From Tetmemena sp. SeJ-2015 (Eukaryota > Ciliophora > Spirotrichea > Sporadotrichida > Oxytrichidae): a stretch of 64,000 nt of DNA. Numbering within the stretch: the stretch's first letter is position 1; the number at the start of each line of letters is the position of its first letter. The notes beneath the pieces are model-generated. The model was not told the DNA's origin, did no database searches, and was given only the letters and a program-made list of their open reading frames with translations. The position numbers and the translations under genes were made by a program. Below are positions 2,884 through 60,257 of the stretch, one piece after another. The stretch is from NCBI GenBank assembly GCA_027382625.1, contig JAJKFJ010022743.1, positions 62,001 through 126,000 on the forward strand, written 5' to 3'.

Positions 2884-3545
2884 ATGATGAAATCATAACA
2901 ATTTATAAATGACAGCATGGATGGAGTGTTCAACAGAGATCTCTCGAAAAAGTCTACTAACGCAGGAGACACCATCCCTATCGACACTTCAGTCAATCAC
3001 TATGAGCTACCAAATCTAACTTAATGTATATTTCATAAGATAATTTACTATAATTGCCTCAAAGCTTACTTATTAACAGTTTTATAGTACTTTATGACTA
3101 TACGAATAAGGAGTAGGAGCTGATCTAGAGGTGTTTCAGAACGGGAAATTGTAATTTAATTCTAGTATTTTAAACAATTTTGACGATAGACAATTCTTTG
3201 AGGGAACTTCCAGCGAAAATTCAACCAAATGTGCTCCTTAAATTCTTGAAAAAGAAGATGGATCAAAATTTACTCGCTAAAATGCCAAACGATCAAAAGA
3301 AATTAGTTGGTGGCGGGTTGTTTCAAGATTTCGAATGGATACCTGACTCTTATGATAACTGTAAGCTTATCATTTCTAAATAAAGAAAACTGACATAAAA
3401 AATTATAGATCAAAAGCAAAAATAAGAGGAGGCAAGGTTTCATAAGTAGCTGATGCAGAACATTTCAGAGAAGCCTTTTATTTTGGGAAGTGATAGCTTT
3501 AAATGTAAGAATAAAGTTTTCAAAGAAAAATTTAACAAATAATTC
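2884..3545 (+). CDS. Small hypothetical protein
   Basis: ATG 2884 begins MMKSQQFINDSMDGVFNRDL. After one intron-like interruption (about 3025-3078, GTATAT...ATAG) and a second near 3153-3180, the frame continues through NSLRELPAKIQPNVLLKFLKK and IPDSYDNCKLIISK to about 3540. The protein is basic, Lys/Gln-rich and about 170 residues. No domain recognised. The 3' end is unclear because the convergent minus gene appears to reach the same place, and no TGA was found in frame close to the last convincing codons. Confidence 0.45.
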
Positions 3546-4526
3546 TAAAGCTCAAGATATTCAATTCGTTCCTTCATTTATTCCTTCTCTTGTCGAAGCT
3601 GGATCATTTCTAATGATAATTTTTCACTTAATTTGAGCTCTCCATAAACGGTGTTACTAGAATTACCTTCAGCAGCTTATCCCATTTCAGATTAACTTCT
3701 CTTGGGTGAGTGCATCTCGCTCTACCTCTTTTCCTTTGTTAACTTTCTGCTATCTTTTTCGAACATAGGCAACAGATAACTCCTTACAACTTAAGCAGCA
3801 ATTTCAGGAGTTATATCGCTTATGTCAATCTTAAAATAGTAAAAATTATCTTCATTGGAAGATGGCTCCTATTAGAGCTACTGTTGCCCCCTCCTCTCGG
3901 ATCAGTTGATTTATGCCTTTGAGTTGCTAGTCCTTTTATTTGACTTTGCTATCTTGAAGTCAACTAATCCACATTTATTTTGGGAGTAACGTAGAGCCCA
4001 TTTGTGAAATTTTATTCTGCCTAAGTTGATGATTTCTTTTTACCTTGCTTCTTAGATTTATCTCTCTTTGTATTTGCACCCCCCTCTTGCTGTGAAATTT
4101 TGCTCAAGATTTTACCTAAGCTGTCTTTTGGTTTAGCTAATTTTACTGATTTTAGATTGAGGGATTGAGCATATTCAAATTAATTCCATAATAGTAATAA
4201 GTATTGCTAAACATATTCAAGCTTTGAAGAGAGTTATCTTGCTCTTCACTTATCCTTGGAGATAGATTGCTGTTATTTTGATTGAAGAAGCGGCCGGAGG
4301 AATTACTAAACATATCACTGGTTTAGCCATTTAGGTTATGTCTTCCTGAATTCTGCATCATTAGCTAGCTATTCTAATTCATAAAGCTGTTTTGATTCCC
4401 ATACTAGGTCGATAAATTTAAGTTAAATCACCTTAAGATATAAATCCTACAGATCAGACTGAGACCTCAGTTCAAGTTAAGGATTGGAGGTTATCATTTG
4501 TTTGTAGTTCTACTCATTTTATTCAT
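3545..4526 (-). CDS. Hypothetical Asn/Ser-rich protein
   Basis: Minus-strand coding stretches in two or three phases: an Asn/Ser-rich N-terminal part (SNSSGRFFNQNNSNLSPR), a Lys-rich part (KRDKSKKQGKKKSSTQAE), then a folded-looking part with DNFYYFKIDISDITPEIAAQ and a C-terminal helix (LSLEMIQLRQEKEQMKER). Phase changes near 4160 and 3860 imply IESs or introns that I did not delimit. The candidate start is near 4526 (ATG AAT AAA ATG). No family recognised. It converges on the small plus-strand gene to its left with little or no spacer. Confidence 0.45.
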
Positions 4527-37829: not shown

Positions 37830-40800
37830 ATGTATGTTTAAGTTAGGATTCCTTATATAGCTTTATCAGCTATTTTCCAGATAAATGTTTATTCACAAGA
37901 ATAATTTCCTTATGTTGCAGAGAATGAGCATGATCAAGAAGTTTTCTATGATCTTCTAAGACGCCGAGATAATCGTTAAGAGTATTTCTGTAGAGAGCAT
38001 CATATCTATCGAGCTCTCTATTGAAAGCATCATTTTCCCTCAGCAAATTTTGAATTTAGTCCCCAACTGGCTTTTGGATTTGCTGTAAATTTTAACTGAC
38101 TTCATCTATTTTTCTAATGACAAAGGATTTAAGAGTTTCGGCTTCTTGTTTCATAACTTAAATCTACTTTTGAATAGAATGAGGAGTTATTTAGTTAGTA
38201 TTGATTCCTCCAATTATATCATAAAACTAAAATATTGAGCATAAATTTGAATTATAGTGATGTTTTGAGTTGTGTTGTTGAAATTAGATCTAGTTGATTG
38301 CATGGCTGCGTCTTATGAGGGTCCAAATAGTGCACCTGTATCAAAGGCGGTACTATTGCCTCCAGTGATATCGAGAGACTTGAATTTAGCCTCTTACAGC
38401 TTCTTCTTAACAAGTTCAATGCCTTATCTGATATTTTCAGCAGTAGTCTCAAAACTCTTCATGCGCTTCTTGTAGTATCTTTATCCTCTATATACTGCTG
38501 CCTAATGGAAGACTGATCCTTCTCTAGACTAAGCTTCATTTTCTTAAACTCCTCAACTGACTTCTTGAGGAATCTCTCCTTCAACTTCTCATCATAAGAC
38601 TCATGCTCATGCAATCTTGCCGAAAGAGCTTCGAAGGACTTAAGCAGCGAAATCAGTTTATGATGGTGAGTACTGAAGAAGACGTGAGTCTATCTCCACT
38701 CACTCTCATGTAGCTTAACTGTGTCGTACAGATCCTTATGAGAATCCTTCATGAATGATATCTCCTTCTTGATATAAAATAAGAGAGTATAAATCCAAGA
38801 ATTTTAAGATATTTTCTATCTCTATGGGGTCTATGCTAGGCTAGCCAATTTTATTCTGGAGCATTTTCAGTTTGTTTCTTCTATAAGGAGAAGAGCTGAG
38901 TCCCACTATAATTAAAATGTTAAGTGAAGATGAAACTACTTTTAGAGTAGGTTTGCCTGAGGGAAGAATGCTATGAAACCATATCGTTGTTGTTGATTGT
39001 GCTATTGTGTTAGTTGTGTGGAGATTTGTCCCTTTGAGTATCTTGAGGGATCCCTCCATGGATACTGCTTATGGCTGCTCTGTTCACACTTTCCTCCTTG
39101 TCTATTTAGGACTTGGAGCTACTCTCTACCTTTATCTAGTTCCCACTCATTTTAATTGAAACTCCAATAGTTGGAATAGTCTCATTCAATCTCTTTGCTT
39201 CTAAATCTGCAACAGCTAATGCGAGGTTAGTTCCTTATTTCTCTGTGGCTCTCCTTGAAGTCAGCATTTTCTTGTCTTAGTTTGAAGAATTGACAAGTTG
39301 CTAAAATGTCTCAGTCAATTTCTGCTGTGAAGGTATTGCATTAGGAGTCTGAGTGTGGTGCTTACCCGAGTTAGACTAACTATCATTGGGCTTTAAAAAT
39401 GTGTGCTCAAATCCAGCTGGCTTGTGCTAATCGTCCTTTGATCCTCTTTTCTTTGAGAATGAATGCTCTATAGCTATAATCCCATCCTTAGTCTTCCTCT
39501 TATCCTTATAGTCAGGCAGGTCATTGGTCTACTTCTTGGAAACCTTACCATCTAAACTTGCTTTAACTAAGTCATCAATGATCTAGTCCTAGTTCTCTAT
39601 AAGTTTATGAGTGGTTGTGCTATTCTTGCCATGCCTGCTATCTCTTAGAGGGTGATTCTTGGCGCTCATCTTTGATATATCCTGTGCATTTTATCTTTCA
39701 TTTGCCAAGTCCATCTTATTTAGATCGTGGTAGACGTCTTCGTTGATGGAGAGTGACTGTTTATGAGGAGTTGACTTCTCCTCAACTGTGTTATTTAGCA
39801 CCTCGTCTCCAAACAAGTTCTAGTCATTACTGTTACTATGGTAGTTCATCTTCTTAAAACGAGAGGGCACCTGACTGTTATTCACCTCGTCCTTCAATTC
39901 AGCTGAGTCCACATCGTCAAAAGTCTGGTCGTCCTCGTCGAAGTCGTCTCTGTTTGAGCCACTCAGCACTTCCTGCATCAGCAACTCTAGTCTGTTCATT
40001 CGCTCTGTTATCTCATTCAAAAAGCAGTAAAGACAACCGACTTCTATTCATCTATATAAGATGATTGATGGCAGAGATATCTGCCTTATTTTTGTCTAGA
40101 TTCTCAACATCCACGAGCTCCGCCTTGTGCTACATCTTCTGTTATATTGAAACGTCAATGCTGCCAAGCACTTGGTCTATCTTGAGTTCACTCTCTTTGA
40201 CTATCTCCATGACTGAGCGGTAGTTGCTCTGCATGTCCTTTTTGCTGCCCTTCTCTTTCAGCTTCTTACTGGTCTCTACAGCGAATGCTTAGAATTGCTT
40301 TGTAAAACCATCTTGCAGATTCACAAATCGCTGTTCGATTGTTGCGTCGATGTGAGTCTGCAAGGAGTCCAGGTAACTTTGCAAACTGGCAGTGGTCACT
40401 AACTCATTAGATCTTCCAAGCATAGAACTCTTGTGCACCTGATCTTCAAGAATCAAATCTTAATAGACTTTGTATAAAATACTCAAGAGAGGCTATTCTC
40501 TCAAGAGATTGCTCAAACTTAAAAGAATATATTAGGTGAGGTTAAAACTAAGGACAATTTGAAACTTACATCCTGCTGTAACTTGAAGTAAGACTTCTTC
40601 ACTGTTAGGAAATCAGACAGTCCATCTCCTCTCCTCATTGCAAACTATGAATCATTAATCATATTAGGATGATAACTAAGCAAACTTCTTATGTTCTCTT
40701 GGTTGAGGTTGTCCTCGTCTAGGTTGATGAATTCTTACTGCTTCTTGCGAGTGATGCCATCATTCTTAGTACTCTTGACAGTGACCTTCTCCATGGGTTC

Positions 40801-45715: not shown

Positions 45716-48098
45716 ATGGCATCAACTGAGTTTTACCCCCAGGCTCCCAGCCTGTTTTCAAATGCTTCAGGCCTTGGAGCAGCTATTGTTTCTAAGCAAC
45801 CTCAAAATGGCAACATATCAATAACAACGATTACAATTTAAGCCAAACGCCCAACGATCCTATTCAAGCAAATAGTGTAAATAATAGTCATTGATAGGTT
45901 AATCAGATTAATGATAGCAATTCTCAGTATCAAGTTAAGAAAGAGAATGGCATATATGGGAACTCAAACTTATAAGTCTAGTAAGTTAATTTAAGCAGGT
46001 AATAGTCTTAGAATGGAACTCAGCCCTTTGCTTCAAACTATCAAAATTACACTCCAAACTAAAGCTAATAAGCTTTTCAGACTTCATAAAAATCTATAAG
46101 ACCTCCCTTTGGAAATGGAGGAGGAATGAATATAGGAGGGAATCCCTTCTAAAATGGACCCTAAAATTTAGCATAGAAGTCTTTTCCTCCTCAAAATGGA
46201 TTTGATTATGGCTATTCTAATGAATCAGCTATCCGTGGTAGAAATTTTCAAAACACACCTCTTAACAGAAATGACCAGGGAGGAGCTTATAATCAAGGAT
46301 TAGATTATGGAAACTTAGGAATGGGATTAGGAGGCGCATCTTAGATAAATGGCTTAAGTGCTGCTTGTGAGGAAGTTGGAGCATTCACAGCATAACTTAA
46401 TCAAGCAATGCAATTCAATCATAGCCTCAGCAGCAATTAAACAATCCTGAGAATTTCAACATTATGGATCTCTAGACCTCTAACAATGGCTTCACTGCTA
46501 ATACCTTTTCATTTAATCCTCAAGCAAATTAAAGTAAGCCTGGAGGATAAATTTAAACACCTTCAAGCAATTAAGCAAAAGGAAACTAGTCAAATGGAAC
46601 TCATTTCAATCAAGGTTAAGGAACAAGTCTCAAGATCGAAAGCTAGAATTTAGTTCTGAAAAATCAAGGTTTGTAATCTGCAACGTCTAATTAAGTGAAT
46701 AAGCAAGAAGTAAATAAGTAGGTAGAGGAGAATGAAGACACTAAATAAGTTGAAATCACTCTTATCATAGAATAGTTAGGAACTCAAGAAAAATTCTAGT
46801 TCTGTTACTCTTAGTATTCTTGTGGACTGGATATGCTTATAGATGAGATTTGCTTTACGAAAAGTATGGAAAGAACTACAGATATGAGGCTCGTGCTAGA
46901 ACCAGATTTTATAGTCTTAGATATAGAATGTATTGAAGAAGGAGATACTATAATTTTAAAAAATGTATAGTAAGTGTAGAGCCTAGAATCGATTGCCCAA
47001 AGTTAGAGCATGGGCATGTATTATCAAAGTGACTTAGGTATGAGCTATGTACAGTAAAGGCCCCGTGGAAGAAGACCTTATAGAAGAAATCCAATGGCTC
47101 AAATGAGTAATATGGGAGGGTATTAGACTTAAATGAATCATAATATGGGTATGGGACTCCAAATGCAAGAATCTATGCTAATGGGTGCTGATGGAATGAC
47201 ATTTGACCCTAACTTTAATTCAATAGAAGATGGGTCAATGATGCAGCCCGCTGTAGGGAAAATTAGAAGGAGAGGCCGAAGAGGTAGACCTCCTAAAAAT
47301 GGGTATACTGATGATTCTGACTAGCCTCGAAACACCTATTACTTTTCTATTAAGCAAGCTACCTCTGGCCAAATACCTATCGACTACAACTCGCTAATAG
47401 ATACTCCAGATTTTGTTGAATTTGCTTTTCTAAGTAGCAGTAGAGATCAGTTAATTCATATGTTTAAGACTATAGCGGCAAAGAAAGGCTTTAAAGCAAT
47501 CATACCTTTTACAGATCGTAACAATAGAATGAGCACATCAACTGCTTTCTGTTGCAGTCTAGCTGGAACTTCAGCTAGGAAAAGAGCAACTAATTGTCCA
47601 TTCAAGGTTACGTACACAAAAAATTTCTAGGATCAGCATTATCGAATGGAGAGTAATTACTTTTAGCAGCACAATCATGAATTGCCAATTGAAGATTACA
47701 GTGTAAATGGAAACGATGCTCACGGAGATGGAGGCGGAGAAGCCTTCAAAGAGTAAGACTAAATACTAGAAAAGCTAATGAAAGGAGGAAAGAAAAGAGG
47801 CACTAGTGATGGCAGCGGGATGGCTTTTGGTTTTGGAGTAAATGAGTTCTCAGATCGATCCTCGATAAATGGATCGAATATGTCTAGTGATGACCTTAGT
47901 TAGAACAGTCGAAGAAGCGACAAAATATCAGATGAAGAGGGAGGATCAAGAAGGAAAAACAAAGAGAAGAAAAAGAACAAGAAAAAGAAGAAGAAAAGTG
48001 AAAAGAGAGAAAGAATGCATAACAATTTCGAGTCCGTTAGGAATCTTAGCAACGAGAATTCTCATTCGCAAGAGGTATTAATTTTTGATGAGGCATGA
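45716..48098 (+). CDS. AT-hook and FAR1/GCM-type zinc-finger DNA-binding protein
   Basis: ATG 45716 (MASTEFYPQAPSLFSNASG) to TGA 48096. The first ~350 residues are Asn/Gln/Gly-rich, with phase shifts near 45830, 45890 and 46435. From 46440 the frame is open for about 550 codons. An AT-hook (KIRRRGRRGRPPKNG, about 47260) precedes a domain at 47400-47700 with the FAR1/WRKY-GCM1 zinc-finger pattern: FCCSLAGTSARKRATNCPFK supplies the cysteines and QQHNHELP the two histidines. The C-terminus is Lys-rich (KKKKSEKRERMHNN). FAR1-type fingers derive from Mutator-like transposases and bind DNA in plant transcription factors. A nuclear DNA-binding or chromatin role is inferred; no transposase catalytic domain is seen, so it looks like a host gene. 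Confidence 0.75.
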
Positions 48099-48225: not shown

Positions 48226-51200
48226 TCAAAGCTTACTCTTTTCTTAAATATATAAATGTTATATTAACAAAATTTTCTGATTTTAGTCTCTGCTATTGCT
48301 CCTGATTATCATATCAAATCTTTTTTAATTATTTTTCCTGTTAGATAAAGGATTTTCTAAACTATTCTATTGCAATCTGCTATTTGGAGAAAATTGGTGA
48401 TTATCAGTCAGAGTTAGATTTGATCTCTATTAAGAAATGAAGTTGCTCACACCTCCTGAAGATAAAGTTGCATCTGATTTATCAGTCTGTCTCAAATTAG
48501 ACATTGAAAACTCATTGGCTCTTTCTCTGCTTAAAGATTTTGGAGTTAAGCTCTCTGTGTTTTATATCCTTTGCAATCCTGCCTTAGAAAATATGGAGCC
48601 TTTTTAGAAATTATCGGGATCAACACCTGTCTAAGATTTTTAGAGCTTCTTTCTCAACAAATTCTAAGAGTGAAGACCTTGAGAGATCTATGAAGGCTAA
48701 GTGATTGCCATTTTAGTTCTAAGCAAACATTCACAAGGCTTTCTGTTAATTAAGCACTAGCAATTGCAGTCCTTGTTGTTCTCCACTTTGCAAGTTCTAT
48801 TAAAAAATGAAGGACTATATGAATTTAATCTGCACTAAACAGAGGGAGGAGCATGAGTAGGAGCTTTATTCTAGTTTTCTTGTATTAAGAATGAGTCTCC
48901 ATCCAAAGTAGAGGCCAGTATTGATTTGTTGATATTGGTATCTAACTTTTGTTAACCTTCAGGTGTCATACCACTCATTGAAAATAAAGGCCTCATCTGA
49001 TCAAATGGAGCCTGTATTCTTTCTCTCGACCCATCACTAAATTAACTTTCCTTTCTATTTTTCCTTTGAGCAGCCCTGTCTCTCTCTTTTTTATTGACAA
49101 TGACTAAGTCTTTGCCAGTGGAGTTAAGCTTTTGTTTGATTGGGCGGGGGCTTCTCTGAATTTTAGAATATTTGGGGGATAAGGAGGGTTGTCTAAGTTT
49201 TTGTGTAGGCTCCTTCCTCTTGAGTTTGATTGGAATACTGCCCTTTGACTTGAGAGTGCTGATGTCATCATCGTCAGTGTCTTGTTCTCCTTCCTTTTTG
49301 TTTCCATAGAAATAGTCATGATCTTCTTCCTCCTCATCATCACTGCTTTCCTCATCATCAACATCTTTGCTCTTAATGAAGATGTTGCTTCTTGGCAGCA
49401 AAATCAGGTCGATGAAGTTTCTAAGTGGCCGTTCGCATAAGAGATAGAAGGGGATTGAAATTAAGTAAGACAAAATCACTGCAGAGATAGTCACTTAGAA
49501 AATATACCACATAGACAGAACTACATCTTGCTCTCTTGACGCGAAGAACCATACCAATAAACTCACAATTCTATACTGTAAACTCATATGGATATTTAAT
49601 AGGTTTATTATCTACAGCAATAGATATGCTGATAGAGTAATCTCTTCTAACAGCTGCCAGATATGGGAGCTTATCATTGGCCTAATGCAAACTGAGATGT
49701 TTATAAGGGTTGGAAGAAGTAGCAAGATCAAACCAAAGTAAAAGAAGTACTGGCTGAAAACATTGTATAGAGTTGAAATCCCCAAACCCCAGCAATAAGA
49801 TAGAGGCTTTATCTGCTCGAATTTCATCGGAGAATATATAAATTAAAAAGGAGTCTGATCTACGCATGCTGTGTTAGAGTATTGAAGGAACACGGGAAAT
49901 GCTCCAAATATAAGGCCAACTGAATAGACTATTGCTTTGAACCATTTCTTTATAAAAATACAAAATATTTTGCTGTATCTTTGCCTTCAATTTATCTATG
50001 ATTGTCTTGTGGAATGGGTATGTTCCATCATTCAACTTGTCAACATACTTGTACTCGAATTTGATAACTGCTAGAGCAATTCCCAATAAGAAGCCTGGCA
50101 GTCTGTAGTAGATTCTGGAGATTATTATCTCGCTCATGTTGGTGTCTAAATTAGGATACGAATTCACATTATTCTGTATCCCCAACACTATTACTGGTAT
50201 AACTGACAAGGACACAGCTATTACCAAGAATGAACTCAAAAACACTTTTCTGAAGGTGTTGCGGTACAAGAACAAGAAAAGGGGAACCAAGATAATTTCA
50301 AGCCAAAATAACATTCATTCATTAAATTCCTTACTCATAACTGTCAAAATATATTTGCGAGTAGAACAAGTGGAATTCCACACTAGTCTGCAAGTTTCCA
50401 AGGGTAGAAGTTGTTAATGATGAGAAGGTTGCTCCACCAGGAGTTTTTACAACTCTGCTCAAAAAATTTATTTGTCAGTAAAGCGTAAAGTGGTCCCTCT
50501 CCCAAGAAAGGAAAGAAGGCTACCATCAGAGCTGTCATGTAGAGCCTATCTTTTTATTTAATGAGCATAGAGAAGAAAATATACAGGAAGCTTCTGATAA
50601 AGAAAATTATAAAGTTAAAGTTCTGTCTTCGCACATACACCTGCAGCAAACTGTCATACATATGGGAGAAACCAAAATAGAAGAACATTGCTCCAAACCC
50701 ATAAGTTTAACCTTGCATTAAAAAGACTGCCACAGAATTTTTAATAGTTTCAGGTCTTTTTTTAATTTGTGGTTAGATAGGGAAAGTCCTGAAAGTTCTT
50801 TGGGAAAGAGTTGAAGGCAACAGCAATTACGAAGTTGAAGCTTACCCATACAAAACCTAGGACCTTTAAAAATCTTAGATAGCTGACTTTCTTAAAGCTA
50901 TCAGTATCATAGAACAAAAGCATTACATTTCTTGTTGGGGAGAAGCAAAGGAAGAAGATAGCCCATATCTTTTTTCTGTTTAATAGAAGTCTGTCAATCT
51001 AAGTAAGCAACTCTATATATTCAATTCATTTTATATATTAAAATAGATTATGAGATAAGACATAGAAAATCTTTATAATTTTGCCAATAAAATAAGATAT
51101 TGATTGCTGTTTGCCTTCTTTTTCAGAGAACTGAACTTGGAAGTTATGAGACTTTTACTTTAAGTCTCCGAACTTTGAATACTGCACTATCATGCCTAAA

Positions 51201-51789
51201 GTAGCTAGAGCCACTGTGGCGATCATGCTCCCTACCATCACATAGAAACCAGGCAAGAAAATTTTATAAATTCTGTATAAAATATAATTTACTATTTCAA
51301 ACTTCTCTAAGGGATTTAAGATCGTCTTTGGGAATCCTATAATTACTTACAGAGCCGTTCGATGCTATTGCTAAAGGAGATAAGTAAGATGCTTGATCCA
51401 TAAACTGTACATATTCAGTGGAGCACTCTTTTATCATGCATTTTCCCACTGCAAAAGCTGCATTTAGGCTTTGCTCATCATTGCTAATGAGTTAGAGAGA
51501 GTAATATGATGACGAGTTTTGGAATTTATAATATACTAGAATTAATCAGAATTAATCAATAGAAATATTTTGATTGCTCACACCAAGAATAATCTCCTAG
51601 CTCATTTAGGTAAAATCCGTTGGCCCCTGCGTTATCTTGGTATAAATCCCCATGAAGCACATTTTTTAAGAGGGCACTCTTACATCTCTTGCCATCTGAT
51701 ATGTTTTCCAGCTTTACAGAGGCTAGCACCCCAAGAATGCAAAACTATAATATTGGATTTTTCTCATTTTATTATTTTTCTTTTCTCAT
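48226..51789 (-). CDS. NRF-6-type membrane acyltransferase
   Basis: Family 'nose resistant to fluoxetine' with an extracellular NRF domain plus Acyltransferase_3 (10-12 TM). Starts at 51789: MRKEKQQNEKNPILQFCILG reads as a signal peptide, then the Cys-containing NRF domain (SDGKRCKSALLKNVLHGDLY, FYLNELGDYSWCEQS, AAFAVGKCMIKECSTEYVQF). TM part: FLPGFYVMVGSMIATVALAT, LRFLKVLGFVWVSFNFVIA, FWLEIILVPLFLFLYRNTF, IYYRLPGFLLGIALAVIKFE, YCWGLGISTLYNVFSQYFFY, and the family ending IPFYLLCERPLRNFIDLILL. A very long cytosolic tail follows: acidic (EESSDDEEEEDHD), then Lys/Ser-rich, open for another ~250 codons to TGA 48226. Several inserts (51570-51500, 51300, 51070-50990, 50800-50740, 50420-50320) break the frame. 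Substrate unknown. Upstream neighbours are unrelated. Confidence 0.85.
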
Positions 51790-52180
51790 TAATTTAGATA
51801 GAAGTATTGAAGAGTATTTATAGCACTTAAATCTTCGATGATCCCTAATGAAGAGACAATTTGATTCAGAAAGAGAAGGCGTAAATCAAAGAGATAATTG
51901 TAAAAATGTCTACAATAACTGATAAGATAGAAAACCTTACTACTATTTATCCCTCTTAGTAAAACCTCCACTTCAGGAAAAGACATGCATAAATGACTGT
52001 AGAAACTAATTTCTTCCAACCTCAAACTTCTCACAGCTAAAAATAGTCGCCACTTAAAAGACCAGCAAACACTAACATATTTATCAAATTTAATTTAAAT
52101 CAAAGCTATAGAGTAGTAATCTAAAATTCATTGTTACTCTGAAACTGCGCTAAATATTTTTATAGAGTTGCATAAGGTGT
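51790..52180. other. Intergenic stretch with a weak minus-strand ORF
   Basis: Minus frame from about 52130 to TGA 51786 has LRR-like spacing (VRSLRLEEISFYSHLCMSF, LGIIEDLSAINTLQYFYLN) but no ATG, and it overlaps the start of the acyltransferase gene. It could be a stray MDS or chance. Nothing else seen. Confidence 0.25.
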
Positions 52181-53464
52181 GAGTAGATGGATAGAATTTG
52201 AGAAGCGAACTTGCAGATGCAATTGAGTTAGGAAAATAGCCAGTTTTCGGGTATCCAATGATGAATTTCGATCCGCGAGAAACTCACCAGCAGTTTTGGA
52301 AAGCTATCTCATCCACAATCACTCACAAGTATACAACTGCCTTCCAGATACCAGATATGGTCTAGCAATTTTTCAAAGAGAAGAAAGAGTAGGAAAAACT
52401 GTAAGCACAGTCAATTAGCATCCTCTTATCTTGCTAAGCTATATTTATAGATAAAAGGACTTTGCCAAAGGCAGACAACTATCACTACGCAAGATAAGCG
52501 CTAAGTACAAGCAAGAGGATTTTGAGGCATCTCGCCCTAAGAGCAAGCAAGCAGCAAAGTTTAGGAGGAGAATAAGCAAGATCATAAAAGAGCCATTCTT
52601 TAAAAATCTAAACGACAACACTAAAATTTAGGTAAGATTCAATCATCATAATAAAATATAATCAAGAGCTTCACATACTTAATTGCATATCTATAAAATT
52701 TATTCTTAAAAATATTAATTTCTTTTTCAGGAGCCAAAGACTTTGCAAAGAAGGAGCACTCTCGCAGCATCAGATTTCAACAGGACTGATATCTTAAGAC
52801 TTCAGAGTTTTAATGATAAGTTAAAGACTTAGAATACCCAACCACGATGTTATTTTTATGCCCTGGGACTCCAAGCTGTCTTCAATCTAGAATCAGAGAG
52901 GAAAATTCCCTTCTGCCCATTAAGGCTTCCTTACATCCAGACATCCAGCTCAAAAATCATATCAAACTCAAAAATGACATTTCGTAATAAATAAATAAGA
53001 ATTGATTACTTATGTTTGTAAGCTTAGAGCTAGTTTGCAAGAAAAAAGGAATCTACTCCGCTAACTGACGAAGTTTCAGACCAGAGTGAGGAAAGTGTGA
53101 TAAACATAGAGCTATAAGGGACAGGACTCACAGAATTGAAGCCTAGGAAAAACTCAATACAATTCCACAAAAAGCAAGAGAGCCTCTAACAGAGTCTATC
53201 AATAGAAAGCTAACAAACAGCTGACGATGTATCTAAGCTCAATTCTTCAGTCCTGGCAGTTCATTAAGAGTAGAAGTAGAAGATATTTGGCCTGCTTGAT
53301 CAAGAGTTAATAATTTAATTTTATAGGTGGAGTTGCCATCAAGCGATGATAAAATAGAATTCGATAGAAAGAAGTTACAAAAATATTACTAATTTTTAAA
53401 TATCAGCACAATCAAAGAAGAAATATAGATATTAAAACTATCCCCCATTCACCTATACAAATGA
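52181..53464 (+). CDS. Basic hypothetical protein
   Basis: Coding from about 52181 (first ATG, out of phase) or ATG 52258 (MMNFDPRETHQQFWKAISST) to TGA 53462. Two GT-AG introns: about 52400-52450 (GTAAGC...TTATAG) and 52631-52730 (GTAAGA...TTTCAG), and probably a third near 53305-53325. The middle is strongly basic (KQAAKFRRRISKIIKEPFF, QRRSTLAASDFNRTDILR). The C-terminal third is acidic/Gln/Ser-rich (DEVSDQSEESVINIELQG) and ends in a helix (STIKEEIQILKLSPIHLYK). About 350 residues. Family not recognised. The frame upstream of 52258 is open and protein-like, so the true start may lie before an IES at about 52190-52205. Confidence 0.55.
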
Positions 53465-55299: not shown

Positions 55300-55391
55300 C
55301 CTTGCTCAATATTTTGATTTCTAGGAGTAACTTATGAGATAAACAAGCTTAATTATAAGTGATTATCCTAATATGTATACACTTTATTTGA

Positions 55392-55406
55392 TGCTTAACT
55401 TGGATT
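55392..55406. repeat. Direct repeat copy A flanking the nested gene
   Basis: TGCTTAACTTGGATT, identical to 58259-58273 and in the same orientation. It sits 6 bp outside the AATATT pointer of the inverted PARN segment, so the unit TGCTTAACTTGGATT-N6-AATATT is duplicated at the other breakpoint with N5. Confidence 0.85.
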
Positions 55407-55412
55407 ATGAAG

Positions 55413-55778
55413 AATATTTAGTTACTACTTACTTGGAATACCATAGATTTGTCATCTATTTTTGACTTTGGGAAAATATAGAAGCAGAAAGGTCTGCATT
55501 TGTATTTCCTTGTGACCTCATCCCAAGTAAAGGTACAAATTCCATACTAAATTGCAGTGAAGGTTTTGACTGCATATTTGATCTTTTGATATCTGTCTTC
55601 CACTGAGTCAAACTAATTGTGTCTATCTAAGTCACCCACCTAGTGCCCTAATCAATTAATAAATATAAGTCTTAATTATACCTGTAAACTCTGTATCAAT
55701 TGCTATAAAGTCTGCGTTCAAAATACTCTCCTTTATTAAGGGAAACTACAGTTCAAAGTTGTCGCTTAAGATTTCCAT
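55413..55778 (-). CDS. PARN: PARN, inverted first MDS (N-terminus)
   Basis: N-terminal part of poly(A)-specific ribonuclease, the DEDD-family 3' exonuclease that shortens mRNA poly(A) tails. Start ATG at 55778: MEILSDNFELQFPLIKESI, then LNADFIAIDTEFTG with the first catalytic Asp and Glu (DxE). A 34-nt GT-AG intron (GTATAA...GATTAG) splits the codon after FT; then QVGDLDRHNQFDSVEDRYQK, AVKTFTAIQYGICTFTWDE and RPFCFYIFPKSKIDDKSMVF follow PARN in order. The segment ends VFQ followed at once by GTAAGTAG (5' splice site) and the pointer AATATT at 55413-55418. The remainder of the gene lies on the plus strand from 58279. Its upstream region is only 82 bp from the stop of the nested minus-strand gene. 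Confidence 0.88.
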
Positions 55779-55860
55779 CAAATTATTTAAAACAATAGCG
55801 AAATCCTTCCAAATATTAGTTCAAGAGAATATGGTAAATTTATAAAAATTTAATAGAAAG

Positions 55861-58164
55861 TCAAAAATAATTCTTATCCAATCCACCATATTCTGCAACT
55901 TCACTAAAGATTTTGTTAATAAAATCTACTCCTCTATTTATTTTCATATCTTCAAGAAAGCTTTCATCTCCATTGATAATATCCTTAATGATGGCTAAAC
56001 ATTTCTATTATCTCTATTTCCTAGAGCTGTCATCTTAGTTATCCTTAGCATAGGTAGGTCTATAGCTTCTCTCCCAAAGATGATAAATTACAGTTCTAGG
56101 AGGAGAGAATAGTTCATACCCATTCTTGAAAAATTAGTACAGCATATAGATTTCCTCACCAAAGAAAACATCGTCCAGGAATTCATTATCAAATTGCTGT
56201 TGTTCTTTGATATTTTCAGGAATCTAAGCTCTATATCCGCAATCTTTTATAAGAGAGCCAGAAGAGAAACTAAATCCAGCTGCCCAGAAAAGGGAACTGA
56301 AAGGTTTTTCAAAAGCATTCTTTTTCTTAATGATTTTAGAGCAGAACCTTGGCAAACCATCATTATGAGAAAATTCTTTGAAACACATAGCTAAGGGACC
56401 TTCAAGCTCTTAAACTTGTAAATCATTAACTTTTGATTCTTCTTGAGAAGAAGTATTTTGATAATAAGGTTTTGGATATACAGTGAGGATTGATTTAAAC
56501 TTAGTATCAAAATATTATTCAGTAATGTTTATTTAACAATAATTTTAGTTTAGTGGGATTTGGACACTATCTGAGATATAAAAATATAAATGCATGATAT
56601 CCTTTAAGGAGTTAATCCCAATTTTTGCAGACTCTCATGTGAGAATCTATCTGCAGATAGTAACCTTCACCCTCATACAAATCTTATACTTGAACACGAG
56701 CATAGAATGCATTTTTTGCCTCTCTAAAATCTACCTATCTTACTTTAAAAGTACAGCCCTGAGTCTCTAAAATTTTTATCTTTTCATTGAGATCTTCTTA
56801 GATTCTTTGATCTGCTTCATCTTACAAGTTTAACTGGTGAAAAATTCCAAAATTAAGATTCTCAGGATTAAGACTTTAAGCCACCAAACTCTCTATTGTC
56901 TAGATAATCTCTGGATCTTAAGATATAAAAATATTAAGATCTCTATAAGAAGGAATACCGATGAATATCTTCTCACTTGTAATATCACTTTATGAGACCA
57001 ACTATTTTGAAATGCAATTGTGAGTGTGTCTAAACCAAGTTGTAAGGGCAAATCTTTCATATCCTACAGTTGGTTTAACTTCGTGTTCTATCCTCTCACT
57101 TTTGAAAAGTATGCTTCGTCCAATGTGGGGAACAACATCTACTATCTTATCTTTGAGATAGAGTCTTAGCTCTCCCAATTTAGATTGACTAATTTGCTCC
57201 TGGATTTGATCTAAATTAGGATTCAGATAGATGATTGCTGTGATCTTTCTTAATCTTTGTCCTTCCGTCAAATTATTCTTGTCAGCTTTGAAAGCATCTT
57301 TGTGCCTGAGATAGTACTCTCCACTTCCAGAATAACTAGCTAGCTGCACTTCAAAATCATCTAGATTTTCATCTTTCTTTTAAAACTGGTTTGCTCTCTG
57401 AGAAATATTTGTCATGAACTAAGTTAATATTAATTAATTAGGAATTAAGTGAACCCCTAATAGGGCATATAATAACTTAATCGATTTAAAGTTAATTCAC
57501 AGGCGTAACTCCTTGATCAGTTGTGCCACGTCACGTGAGAGTCCAGACGTATGAACTAAGTTAAATTTATAAGTTAGCTGCTTCAAACCATTTTGAGAAA
57601 TGTTAACATGCTCTTCATTTTGATTCTTTGCTAGATTTGAAAGCCAGATAAATCTATCTCCACGCACTTTCTTATCCTTCTCATAACTCTCATTCTTTCC
57701 GAATCCTGAGTCTTTAAGCTTCCCTTCAGCACTAAGATTCTACCCTTCTTCTCTGCACCTTAGCAGAAAACTATCAATGTCTCCAACTTAATTTTGGTCC
57801 ACAAAGCATGATGGATCGTCAATTTAAAATTAATAATAAAGAAAAAGCTCAAATAGTTATATAGTAGCAAATGTCTTTATACATTATGATAATGACTCTA
57901 AATGAAATATATATTTTTAATAAAAATGCAAAAATATTTGATTAATATATCATCTACGATCAGATAGTCGATTTGATCTTCACATAGCAGCTTTAGGTTT
58001 TAATCTGTGAGAATATTTTTGACAGGATCTAATTTATCTACTTGGATAATCTCCCTATCATCTATCATATCAAGAAGTTTGAATTTGGTCTTTGCATCCA
58101 ATTTGTTTCCCAGAATTGCTGCCAATTATGCAAAATCAAATTATGAGTTGCTTAACTTTTCCAT
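55861..58164 (-). CDS. Fused prolyl 4-hydroxylase and GT60 GlcNAc transferase (Skp1 PhyA-Gnt1 type)
   Basis: A single gene encodes two enzymes. Start 58164 (MEKLSNSQFDFAQLAAILG). Residues about 60-330 form a 2-oxoglutarate/Fe(II) prolyl 4-hydroxylase of the EGLN/PhyA group: KVRGDRFIWL, SGSGEYYLRHKDAF (HxD iron ligands), RKITAIIYLNPN, SERIEHEVKP (second His), ERFALTTWF (2OG-binding Arg). From about 56960 the frame continues without a stop into a GlcNAc transferase domain of GT60: EKIFIGIPSYRD, EGEGYYLQIDSHMRV (DxD-like metal site), QCPNPTK-KSILTVYPKPYY, SSLFWAAGFSFSSGSL, LDDVFFGEEIYMLYQFFKNG, VIYHLWERSYRPT, ending LDKNYF TGA 55861. In Dictyostelium and Toxoplasma separate PhyA and Gnt1 act in series on one Skp1 proline; here they are joined, about 720 residues. 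Cytosolic (no signal or TM). Nested between two parts of PARN. Confidence 0.87.
56501..56549. other. IES in the GT60 domain, pointer TTAGT (ACTAA in gene sense)
   Basis: TTAGT at 56501-56505 and 56550-56554. Removal of 49 bp deletes two TGAs and gives NPTKFKSILTVYPKPY as expected for GT60. Confidence 0.82.
57425..57504. other. IES in the prolyl hydroxylase domain, pointer TAA (TTA in gene sense)
   Basis: TAA at 57425-57427 and 57505-57507. Removal of 80 bp joins AQLIKEL to TQFMTNISQRAN and deletes a TGA. The 3-bp pointer is the best of several possibilities. Confidence 0.6.
57815..57958. other. IES in the prolyl hydroxylase gene, pointer ATC (GAT in gene sense)
   Basis: ATC at 57815-57817 and 57959-57961. 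Removal of 144 very AT-rich bp gives DYLIVDDPSCFVDQN. It is the longest IES I could delimit here. Confidence 0.75.
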
Positions 58165-58258
58165 TTTATTATTTATCTAATGTGTTTTAATTATAAATCT
58201 ATTCTAATTAAGCAAGCATGATTTACTATTTTCTGGTTTATAATAAATAAACTATTGG

Positions 58259-58273
58259 TGCTTAACTTGGATT
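58259..58273. repeat. Direct repeat copy B flanking the nested gene
   Basis: TGCTTAACTTGGATT, identical to 55392-55406, 5 bp before the AATATT pointer (58279-58284) of the forward PARN block. Confidence 0.85.
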
Positions 58274-58278
58274 TGTTT

Positions 58279-60182
58279 AATATTGGTTGACTGATTTGTA
58301 TAGGCTTCTGCAGTTCAATTCTTGCTGTAGCACAACTTTGACTTTAATAAGCTGTTCAGTTCAGCAGTTGTAAGTTATTTGTATAGTTTTTGAAAGTTAA
58401 ATAGGGATACCACTAGTTGAGCCTCATTGATTAGCTTAAACTCAACTGTAAATACAAAGTCACTAAGAACTTCCCATCTATACGATCTTACACTGCTCTC
58501 AGTCTCCAACACTAAAAAGAATTGGATAGTATGATGAAGATTATTGAAAATTGGGTGTATGATCATAACTCTTACGATACTCTCACATTTGAGATTCAGT
58601 CCTACAGTCTTAAAAAGGCTCTATCTAAGTAAAATACACTATAAATTAATTTGTCATAGGGAAGTCACTCGAGTGTACATGGGCAAAAGGTATCTTTACC
58701 GAATTTATAAGAGGCAGTACTCAAACTATCATCAAGAAGGCTAAGAGCTTCAATTAACAAGACTTCTACAGGCCTGCATTAGAGGATGAAGAGATGGAAG
58801 AGCACAATTAAATGCCAAATGAAAGAGATATAAATATGAGGGATGAAGAATCTACTAAGTTTAATCAATAGAACAGTACTCAAAGGAAGCATGATCAAGA
58901 AAAAAACTAAAAGATAGAAAACGAAATTTTGGATCTATTTCAAAAAGAACTTGGATTCTCCAGAGTTATTTAAGTTCTCTAAGAGTCTAGGAAGCCTATC
59001 GTGGGTCATAATATGATGTATGACTTGATGTTTACATACTAGTTATTCATGGATGACTTGCCATCTACATTTAAATTAATTAAAATTGTTTATTTTACAT
59101 TTGAAGAGTTTTCTAGAGAATGGCTTAATAAATTCTCAGGAGGGATTTATGATACTAAGTCACTTTCTTTTGGTTCAAATGCATTTGCATTTACAGATTT
59201 GAAGAGTATATTTTAGAGATGCTCTTAGGATAAGAAACTGATTAACAATTTGAAGATAGAGTTCGATAAAGAGAAAGATTCTCTTTTTGGTTTGTATGAA
59301 TCCTTAGGATAAGAGCATGACGCTGGATACGATGCTTTTATGACTGGCTACATATTTGCTCATATAGCAAAATACATAGAGATAGGAAAGATATTCTAAG
59401 CCTCTCAAAAATATAAAAATACCTAATAAGATAACAAAGAGACTTAGGGAAGACAATTGGCATAATCAAACACTCCCAGTCAATATGAAGCAACCACCAA
59501 AGCAGCAAATAGAAAAGCTAGGAAAGGAAAAAAGCCAGTATAGTAGTAAGATAGCGACACTGATGCCTTCAGTGATTCAGAATCAAAAATTATCGCCTCT
59601 CAAAAATTAGTCTATTAAAAGCTAAGAATAATAGCCTACCTCATCATCATAATAGAGGCATGAGTAAATTCCTTATAGGCATTTCTCTTCAGCACAAAAT
59701 AATCCTATCTACTATTCAGATATAGCAGACCACAAAAATAGAGTGCTTCTTTGTGCAGACCTACCTAGATTTTTCAACTTTAACAGTAAATTTAATTTTA
59801 ATAACTTTGATAGAATAATTAAATGAGCAAGAGAAGATATTTTATAATATGATTTCGGCTTAATCTCTGCAAGTCTCACACAAATAGGGTGTGAGTGTGT
59901 AACTTTTATCAGAAATATTTTCAGAGTTTGGAGATGTAGAAGTAAGGTTAAATTTATAGTTTATTATCTTTAGGTATGTAAAGAAAATTAGGAACTCTCA
60001 TATATCTTGATGAATAATTTCGATAATGAAATCATTACTACTGGAAAAATAGAAGAAGTCTTAGAAAAGTCAAGCTTTTGATCCTAAAAGATTATGCTCA
60101 AATTATTCCAACAACTGAAGGAATCGAAACTGAATTTATTTTTACGTACGATAGAGCAAAGAAGTTCGTATGTCCCATTTGA
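58279..60182 (+). CDS. PARN: PARN, forward MDS block (rest of the gene)
   Basis: Begins with pointer AATATT (58279-58284) and a 3' splice site TTTGTATAG at 58295-58303. The first coding bases give ASAVQFLLQHNFDFNKLF, exactly the PARN block that follows the inverted segment. Then a helical/linker part (QKELDSMMKIIENWVYDHNS), an EVTRVYMGKRYLYRIYKRQ strand region, GFSRVI and VGHNMMYDLMFTYQLF (second catalytic Asp), LPSTFEEFSREWLNKFSGGI, YDTKSLSF, HDAGYDAFMTGYIFAHIAKY (third and fourth DEDD residues: HD and YDA), a Gln/Lys linker, an RRM-like end (NRVLLCADLPRFFNF, LLSEIFSEFGDVEVR) and TGA 60180. The second exonuclease half plus RRM order matches animal and plant PARN. Several introns or IESs remain unresolved (58350-58480, 58620-58660, 59630-59660, 59820-59960). 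Confidence 0.87.
59067..59096. other. IES in PARN, pointer ACATTT
   Basis: ACATTT at 59067-59072 and 59097-59102. Removal of 30 bp, a multiple of three with no TGA, gives DDLPSTFEEFSREW as in PARN; another frame-neutral insert. Confidence 0.82.
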
Positions 60183-60257
60183 ATTTAAGTAATTTTAAAT
60201 CCTTATCTCCCTAAGATATATTTTACTAAAAATATTGAAATAACTAAACTATTAAAT

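Follow-up and report, generated by a model that had tools for sequence, protein, structure and literature searches.

The nearest precedent for an inverted gene start is actin I of Stylonychia lemnae, in which the 5′-most segments 1 and 2 lie inverted relative to the remaining segments, and the short repeats known as pointers are used for both inversion and joining, as set out in the passages of the report that concern this gene (PMC2394655). Maternal RNA templates were proposed in the same pages to guide rearrangement in Stylonychia and Oxytricha (PMC2394655). Scrambled genes of Oxytricha, Tetmemena, and Euplotes woodruffi contain inversions as well as permutations, and the sections of PMC9797194 that compare their orthologs describe pointer positions that are conserved and pointer sequences that differ, a greater number of paralogs among scrambled genes, and some intron positions that coincide with pointers. 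In Strombidium cf. sulcatum, inversion was reported to be the main type of scrambling, present in 69.4% of scrambled chromosomes, and small introns measure 28-42 bp; this species and Halteria grandinella are presented, in the relevant parts of that study, as spirotrichs with many inversion-type scrambled chromosomes (PMC10901763). Here, we describe a gene for the RNA-trimming enzyme PARN, a CAF1-family deadenylase, found in a 64,000-nucleotide stretch (the window) of contig C3379, which belongs to a 146-Mb assembly of 5213 contigs. During development of the working nucleus, the first part of this gene is probably flipped and joined to the rest, having been left inverted in the ciliate germline DNA.

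The resemblance to actin I lies in the inverted gene start. The differences are that actin I, as described in those passages (PMC2394655), consists of ten segments plus a further translocated one, whereas PARN has one inverted junction, which is intronic and has a short, candidate pointer. PMC9797194, in the same sections, compares junctions between the orthologs of different species; the present comparison is among three paralogs within one genome that share one inverted intron, and, unlike the cases described there, the intron at the junction remains an intron after joining. A literature search for PARN in Oxytricha found no publication on scrambling of such a gene, as judged by title.

The two halves of PARN lie on opposite strands. 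Exons 1 and 2 occupy the minus strand from 55778 to 55433, and the remainder occupies the plus strand from 58304 to a TGA stop codon at 60180-60182 (Table 1); in all genes used here, TAA and TAG were read as glutamine and TGA as stop. Translation of the minus strand from 55778 to 55413 yields MEILSDNFELQFP, continuing to FIAIDTEFTG, then intron 1, then HQVGDLD continuing to KSKIDDKSMVFQ, after which the DNA reads GTAAGTAGTAACTAAATATT. On the plus strand, AATATTGGTTGACTGATTTGTATAG runs into GCTTCTGCA at 58304, which is translated as ASAVQFLLQHNFDFNKLF. The break thus falls inside intron 2, and joining of the halves at the AATATT present at both broken ends creates a 39-nt GT-AG intron in phase 0. 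An earlier, sequence-only reading of the window had placed the PARN N-terminus on the minus strand at 55778-55413, and a translation with a start codon and the DTEF motif was found exactly there; both AATATT occurrences that it named were also located. Its plus-strand restart at 58303 was correct as to the strand and the end at 60182, and the exact base is 58304. In DNA searches of the assembly, the first half matched only itself, and the second half matched itself and 76 bases, at 79% identity, in the paralog contig C2309; the assembly therefore holds no joined copy. The statement that neither strand alone carries a full PARN was borne out. Each half is single in the assembly, and the two are complementary.

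Table 1. Features of the split PARN gene and its surroundings (positions in the window).
Feature	Position	Strand	Remarks
PARN exon 1	55682..55778	-	start codon and catalytic DTEF; CAF1 match in own genome
PARN intron 1	55648..55681	-	34 nt, GT-AG
PARN exon 2	55433..55647	-	ends ..KSMVFQ
Split intron 2, 5′ half	55413..55432	-	GTAAGTAGTAACTAAATATT; candidate pointer AATATT at 55413-55418
Split intron 2, 3′ half	58279..58303	+	AATATTGGTTGACTGATTTGTATAG; candidate pointer AATATT at 58279-58284
Rest of PARN	58304..60182	+	ASAVQFLL... to TGA; introns include one of 31 nt at 58629-58659
19-bp repeat, left copy	55388..55406	+	TTGATGCTTAACTTGGATT; 6 bases outside AATATT
19-bp repeat, right copy	58255..58273	+	TTGGTGCTTAACTTGGATT; 5 bases outside AATATT
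30-bp in-frame insertion	59067..59096	+	93% A+T; begins ACATTT, with ACATTT again right after (to 59102); candidate small unscrambled internal eliminated sequence (IES)
2OG-Fe(II) oxygenase (PF13640) and GlcNAc-transferase (PF11397) gene	55861..57950 (upstream border approximate)	-	colinear
Small open reading frame MEKLSNSQ...	57930..58163	-	may form the beginning of the oxygenase gene

The sequence used in domain and structure searches was that of the joined protein, from which the 30-bp insertion at 59067 was left out and in which a frame shift of the plus-strand half was bridged (see below). It was found to contain one full CAF1 domain (PF04857, 1.7e-77, 261 bits, profile positions 3-320 of 320). 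Searches against the PDB returned the PARN structures 2a1r (7.4e-39) and 3d45 (3.1e-38), whereas subunit 8 of CCR4-NOT reached only 0.00058, and the alignment with the solved PARN 2a1r spans the junction (FQ-ASAVQFL versus CQ-SSSIDFL). The named proteins among the matches listed in a protein search were PARN or of PNLDC1 type. Judged by these comparisons, the joined gene is PARN, nearer to PARN than to CNOT7/8 or other CAF1 proteins; the completion of the CAF1 domain by joining, and the alignment of a solved PARN across the junction, uphold the identity first proposed.

Comparable breaks were found in two paralogs, so that three of the four PARN-type loci (the window, C2006, and C2275, with C2309 as the exception) are inverted at one intron. 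In C2006, the N-terminal part lies on the plus strand at 46562-47122, and the C-terminal part begins near 39300 on the minus strand and extends at least as far as 37489; in C2275, the N-terminal part lies on the plus strand at 3105-3511, and the C-terminal part on the minus strand from 5839 down to 4467. In both, the break comes after the same residue as in the window PARN, and a 12-bp sequence is present at both broken ends. In C2006 this is CATCCTCTCTTT (at 47123 and 39323), where joining gives a 37-nt GT-AG intron, and in C2275 it is ATATTTAGGCAA (at 3595 and 5828), where joining gives a 103-nt GT-AG intron. At each of the two loci, 1 of 300 block-wise shuffles produced a 12-bp match.

Scrambling is also seen in other genes of this assembly. 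CAF1-family matches fall on nine contigs, and PARN-type N- and C-terminal parts lie on opposite strands in C3379 (the window), C2006, and C2275. Two further contigs, C2673 (24001-33000) and C3956 (13001-21000), carry CAF1-family genes, presumably TOE1-like, whose first exon is permuted to a position downstream of the remainder, with no change of strand; the remaining four (C2309, C2795, C4258, and C249, the last seen as one short piece) show no scrambling in the pieces seen. In C3956, the 14-bp sequence GTAGCTCAAAGATA closes the first-exon piece and opens the rest, within coding sequence, and none of 300 shuffles reached 14 bp. Pieces of DNA polymerase B also lie on opposite strands, 3.5-4 kb apart, in C4161 (profile positions 3-171 minus, 155-239 plus) and C1943 (160-239 minus, 52-171 plus), an arrangement also known from the scrambled polymerase alpha of hypotrichs. 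On C1785, by contrast, the gene for DNA polymerase delta is unbroken. The genome is that of the germline of a spirotrich ciliate with scrambled genes. By DNA polymerase delta, the nearest named relative is Halteria grandinella, at 78% identity, a value that excludes the same species; identity to Stylonychia lemnae is 68% over the whole query (85% over 80% in another entry), and to Euplotes crassus 62%. The Strombidium and Halteria assemblies, as given in the parts of PMC10901763 that describe them, measure 135 Mb with 52.0% G+C and 225 Mb with 42.4%, versus 146 Mb, and about 34% in the window, here. The view of the locus as germline DNA with an inversion gained from these other scrambled genes and from the two PARN paralogs in which this intron is likewise the site of inversion and has 12-bp pointers.

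We consider it highly probable that the window holds a scrambled micronuclear PARN of a spirotrich ciliate, in which the 5′ part is inverted, and which undergoes macronuclear inversion and joining in intron 2 at a short repeat. The halves are unique, complementary, located on opposite strands, and broken in an intron; the macronuclear joining and its guidance by RNA are what we infer. In the germline, the part inverted relative to the 3′ part would comprise exons 1 and 2 plus half of intron 2, and perhaps also the oxygenase-GlcNAc-transferase gene that separates the halves. During macronuclear development, one part would be inverted and the two joined at a short repeat in intron 2, for which AATATT is the best candidate, and joining would probably be guided by maternal RNA templates. 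The rebuilt 39-nt intron would then be spliced from the RNA as usual.

Several observations weigh against this reading or against parts of it. The AATATT match is at chance level: the motif occurs 70 times in the 64-kb window, a match of at least 6 bp was reached by 419 of 1000 shuffles when the joined intron was allowed 25-60 nt, and, in a wider test, the best allowed match at the junction was 7 bp, which 209 of 300 shuffles reached. The plus-strand half has no clean frame as assembled: a run of four A near 58686 contains one frame shift, and, judged by eye, a second probably lies near 60065. No macronuclear contig or protein of the same species was found: among the best 120 of 815 matches, the first was 39% identical across 90% of the query, and 47% was the top identity. 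The paralogs also differ among themselves. The C2309 intron looks unbroken by eye, with both exons on the plus strand within about 150 bases; the geometry is unlike from locus to locus, the broken ends facing away from each other in the window and in C2006, and the N-terminal part of C2275 pointing toward its C-terminal part; and a protein tree leaves the grouping of the paralogs undecided (support 52-78 at the relevant nodes). Regarding the first point, AATATT was proposed as the pointer, and it is present at both broken ends; it stands as a candidate only, the match being no better than chance. It stays the best candidate because the joined intron is then of the usual local size (the others are 34 and 31 nt).

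The chance-level pointer match in the window would also suit trans-splicing, by which the halves would be transcribed apart from opposite strands, and their RNAs joined via the split intron, with no DNA rearrangement. So would the intronic position of the break: in each of the three inverted paralogs, it is flanked by a good 5′ splice site at one end and a 3′ splice site at the opposite end. Trans-splicing needs no shared repeats, however, and C2006 and C2275 have 12-bp ones across the break, seldom equalled by the shuffles; the 14-bp repeat of C3956 sits in coding sequence, away from a splice site, and a search found no publication on split genes in ciliates, as judged by title. We therefore regard trans-splicing as very improbable.

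The frame shifts raise the alternative of a dead germline copy, in which a real inversion would have destroyed PARN and no programmed repair would follow. This is scarcely credible for a gene that retains catalytic motifs in both halves (DTEF; GHNMMYD; HDAGYDAF) and intact splice sites, and for which the assembly holds no second intact PARN copy; moreover, a frame shift in an A run is what would be expected of a sequencing error. The frame shifts near A runs in the 3′ half are probably assembly errors. Near the first of them, splicing of 58629-58659 gives EVTRVYM, which fits the homologs P0001 and P0002 (ITERFM and ITELYM), and leaves a one-base frame shift in the A run. A 35-bp AAGT...AAGT segment at 58627, whose removal leaves the frame open, was considered as a small IES and rejected, as the C2006 paralog has a 37-nt GT-AG intron there. 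The 30-bp insertion at 59067 has no counterpart at this place in the paralogs C2006, C2275, and C2309.

Next to the AATATT at each broken end, the plus strand carries a copy of a 19-bp repeat, TTGRTGCTTAACTTGGATT; the two copies are near-identical and in direct orientation, and the earlier, sequence-only reading had missed them. Viewed outward from each PARN half, they mirror each other as the termini of a single element would. The repeat has no further match in the genome at 0 or 1 mismatch, and its interpretation as a genome-wide IES-end motif was rejected on that ground. With up to 3 mismatches allowed, the search gave 116 matches in forward and 112 in reverse orientation, compared with 54 and 32 for a reversed control, and several of the matches listed are copies of one sequence. 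Derivation from an IES of Tc1/mariner type, or from a telomere-bearing element, was also set aside: the ends of such elements are terminal inverted repeats shared by many copies, and the genome search at 0-1 mismatch found no further match to the 19-bp repeat. A staggered break at the inversion would give inverted copies, and the 19-bp copies are direct; their interpretation as the footprint of such a break was therefore rejected by reasoning. No comparable repeat of at least 9 bp was found at the C2006 break, and only A+T-rich 9-mers were found at that of C2275. The repeat fits an element or IES that once lay in the intron and of which the copies were the termini. It also fits a palindrome whose central AATATT recombined with an AATATT in the intron, because an in-place flip of 55413-58284 rebuilds PARN and sets the 19-bp copies head to head.

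A repeat at both ends could also draw assembly errors, and the apparent base-level errors in the assembly, such as the frame shift near 58686, would likewise be in keeping with a chimaeric or wrongly inverted piece of the contig. By reasoning, direct copies favour collapse or expansion over inversion. The same break is present in two paralogs on other contigs, and mis-assembly is most improbable because independent errors would not fall at one intron in separate contigs.

With the programmed inversion retained as the preferred reading, its age can be considered. A gene on the minus strand of the window at 51479-49366, in the region 48.2-51.5 kb, which may encode an acyltransferase-3 type membrane protein, has a paralog on the plus strand of C2006 at 51137-53067, with 27-60% identity by segment. 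Each of the two lies about 4.0 kb past the broken end of the N-terminal part, in the same orientation. This arrangement suggests, with limited weight, that the N-terminal part of PARN faced this gene already before the duplication. The inversion is probably old, as judged from the same break position in the C2006 paralog and from the part of the gene order beyond it that the two loci share. Duplication of a whole segment that included the GlcNAc-transferase gene was rejected, this family having been found at the window locus only. The near-identity of the 19-bp copies, on the other hand, suggests something recent, against the old inversion that the paralogs imply, and the protein tree gave no resolution for dating. 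Descent from one inversion is unproven, because the geometry differs, C2309 is not inverted, and the tree lacks resolution. Tentatively, an ancestral PARN may have been inverted in intron 2 in the germline, with the break kept through duplication into at least three paralogs with differing pointers. The intron would then have been a lasting safe site for the inversion, as changes in the sequence and position of a pointer carry no cost there. The 19-bp repeat would be left over from a palindrome by which the inversion in the window was seeded or re-set, and an in-place flip at AATATT would turn its two copies into the arms of a hairpin. We regard this account as possible but rather doubtful.

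The oxygenase-GlcNAc-transferase gene between the halves ends 82 bases before the PARN start codon, and the inverted block may include it too. The earlier reading called this block the first MDS (macronuclear-destined segment), which is a putative assignment, as a search found no macronuclear sequence on which MDS borders could be mapped. The window is the only locus in the genome at which PF11397 was found. The combination of an oxygenase and a GlcNAc-transferase in one gene recalls, in our view, the Skp1 prolyl-hydroxylase/GlcNAc-transferase pair of Dictyostelium. Within the oxygenase gene, a 14-bp direct repeat, ATGAACTAAGTTAA, occurs at 57414-57427 and 57551-57564, 137 bases apart; the two copies may be the pointers of an unscrambled IES. 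Simple removal breaks the frame, as judged by eye. On the far side of PARN, 75 bases (60183-60257) separate its stop codon from the first ATG of a same-strand PHD-finger gene, a very tight spacing for germline DNA.

Scrambling of the inversion type is well documented, and one further gene changes little. An inverted scrambled gene is a known phenomenon; the interesting part is the shared or recurrent inversion hosted by an intron. A locus-specific repeat at both breakpoints would be a molecular record, of a rare kind, of the origin of a germline inversion. Paralogs that are inverted at a homologous intron, beside one that is not, form a natural series for the study of how such inversions originate, for how long they last, and whether introns shelter their junctions.

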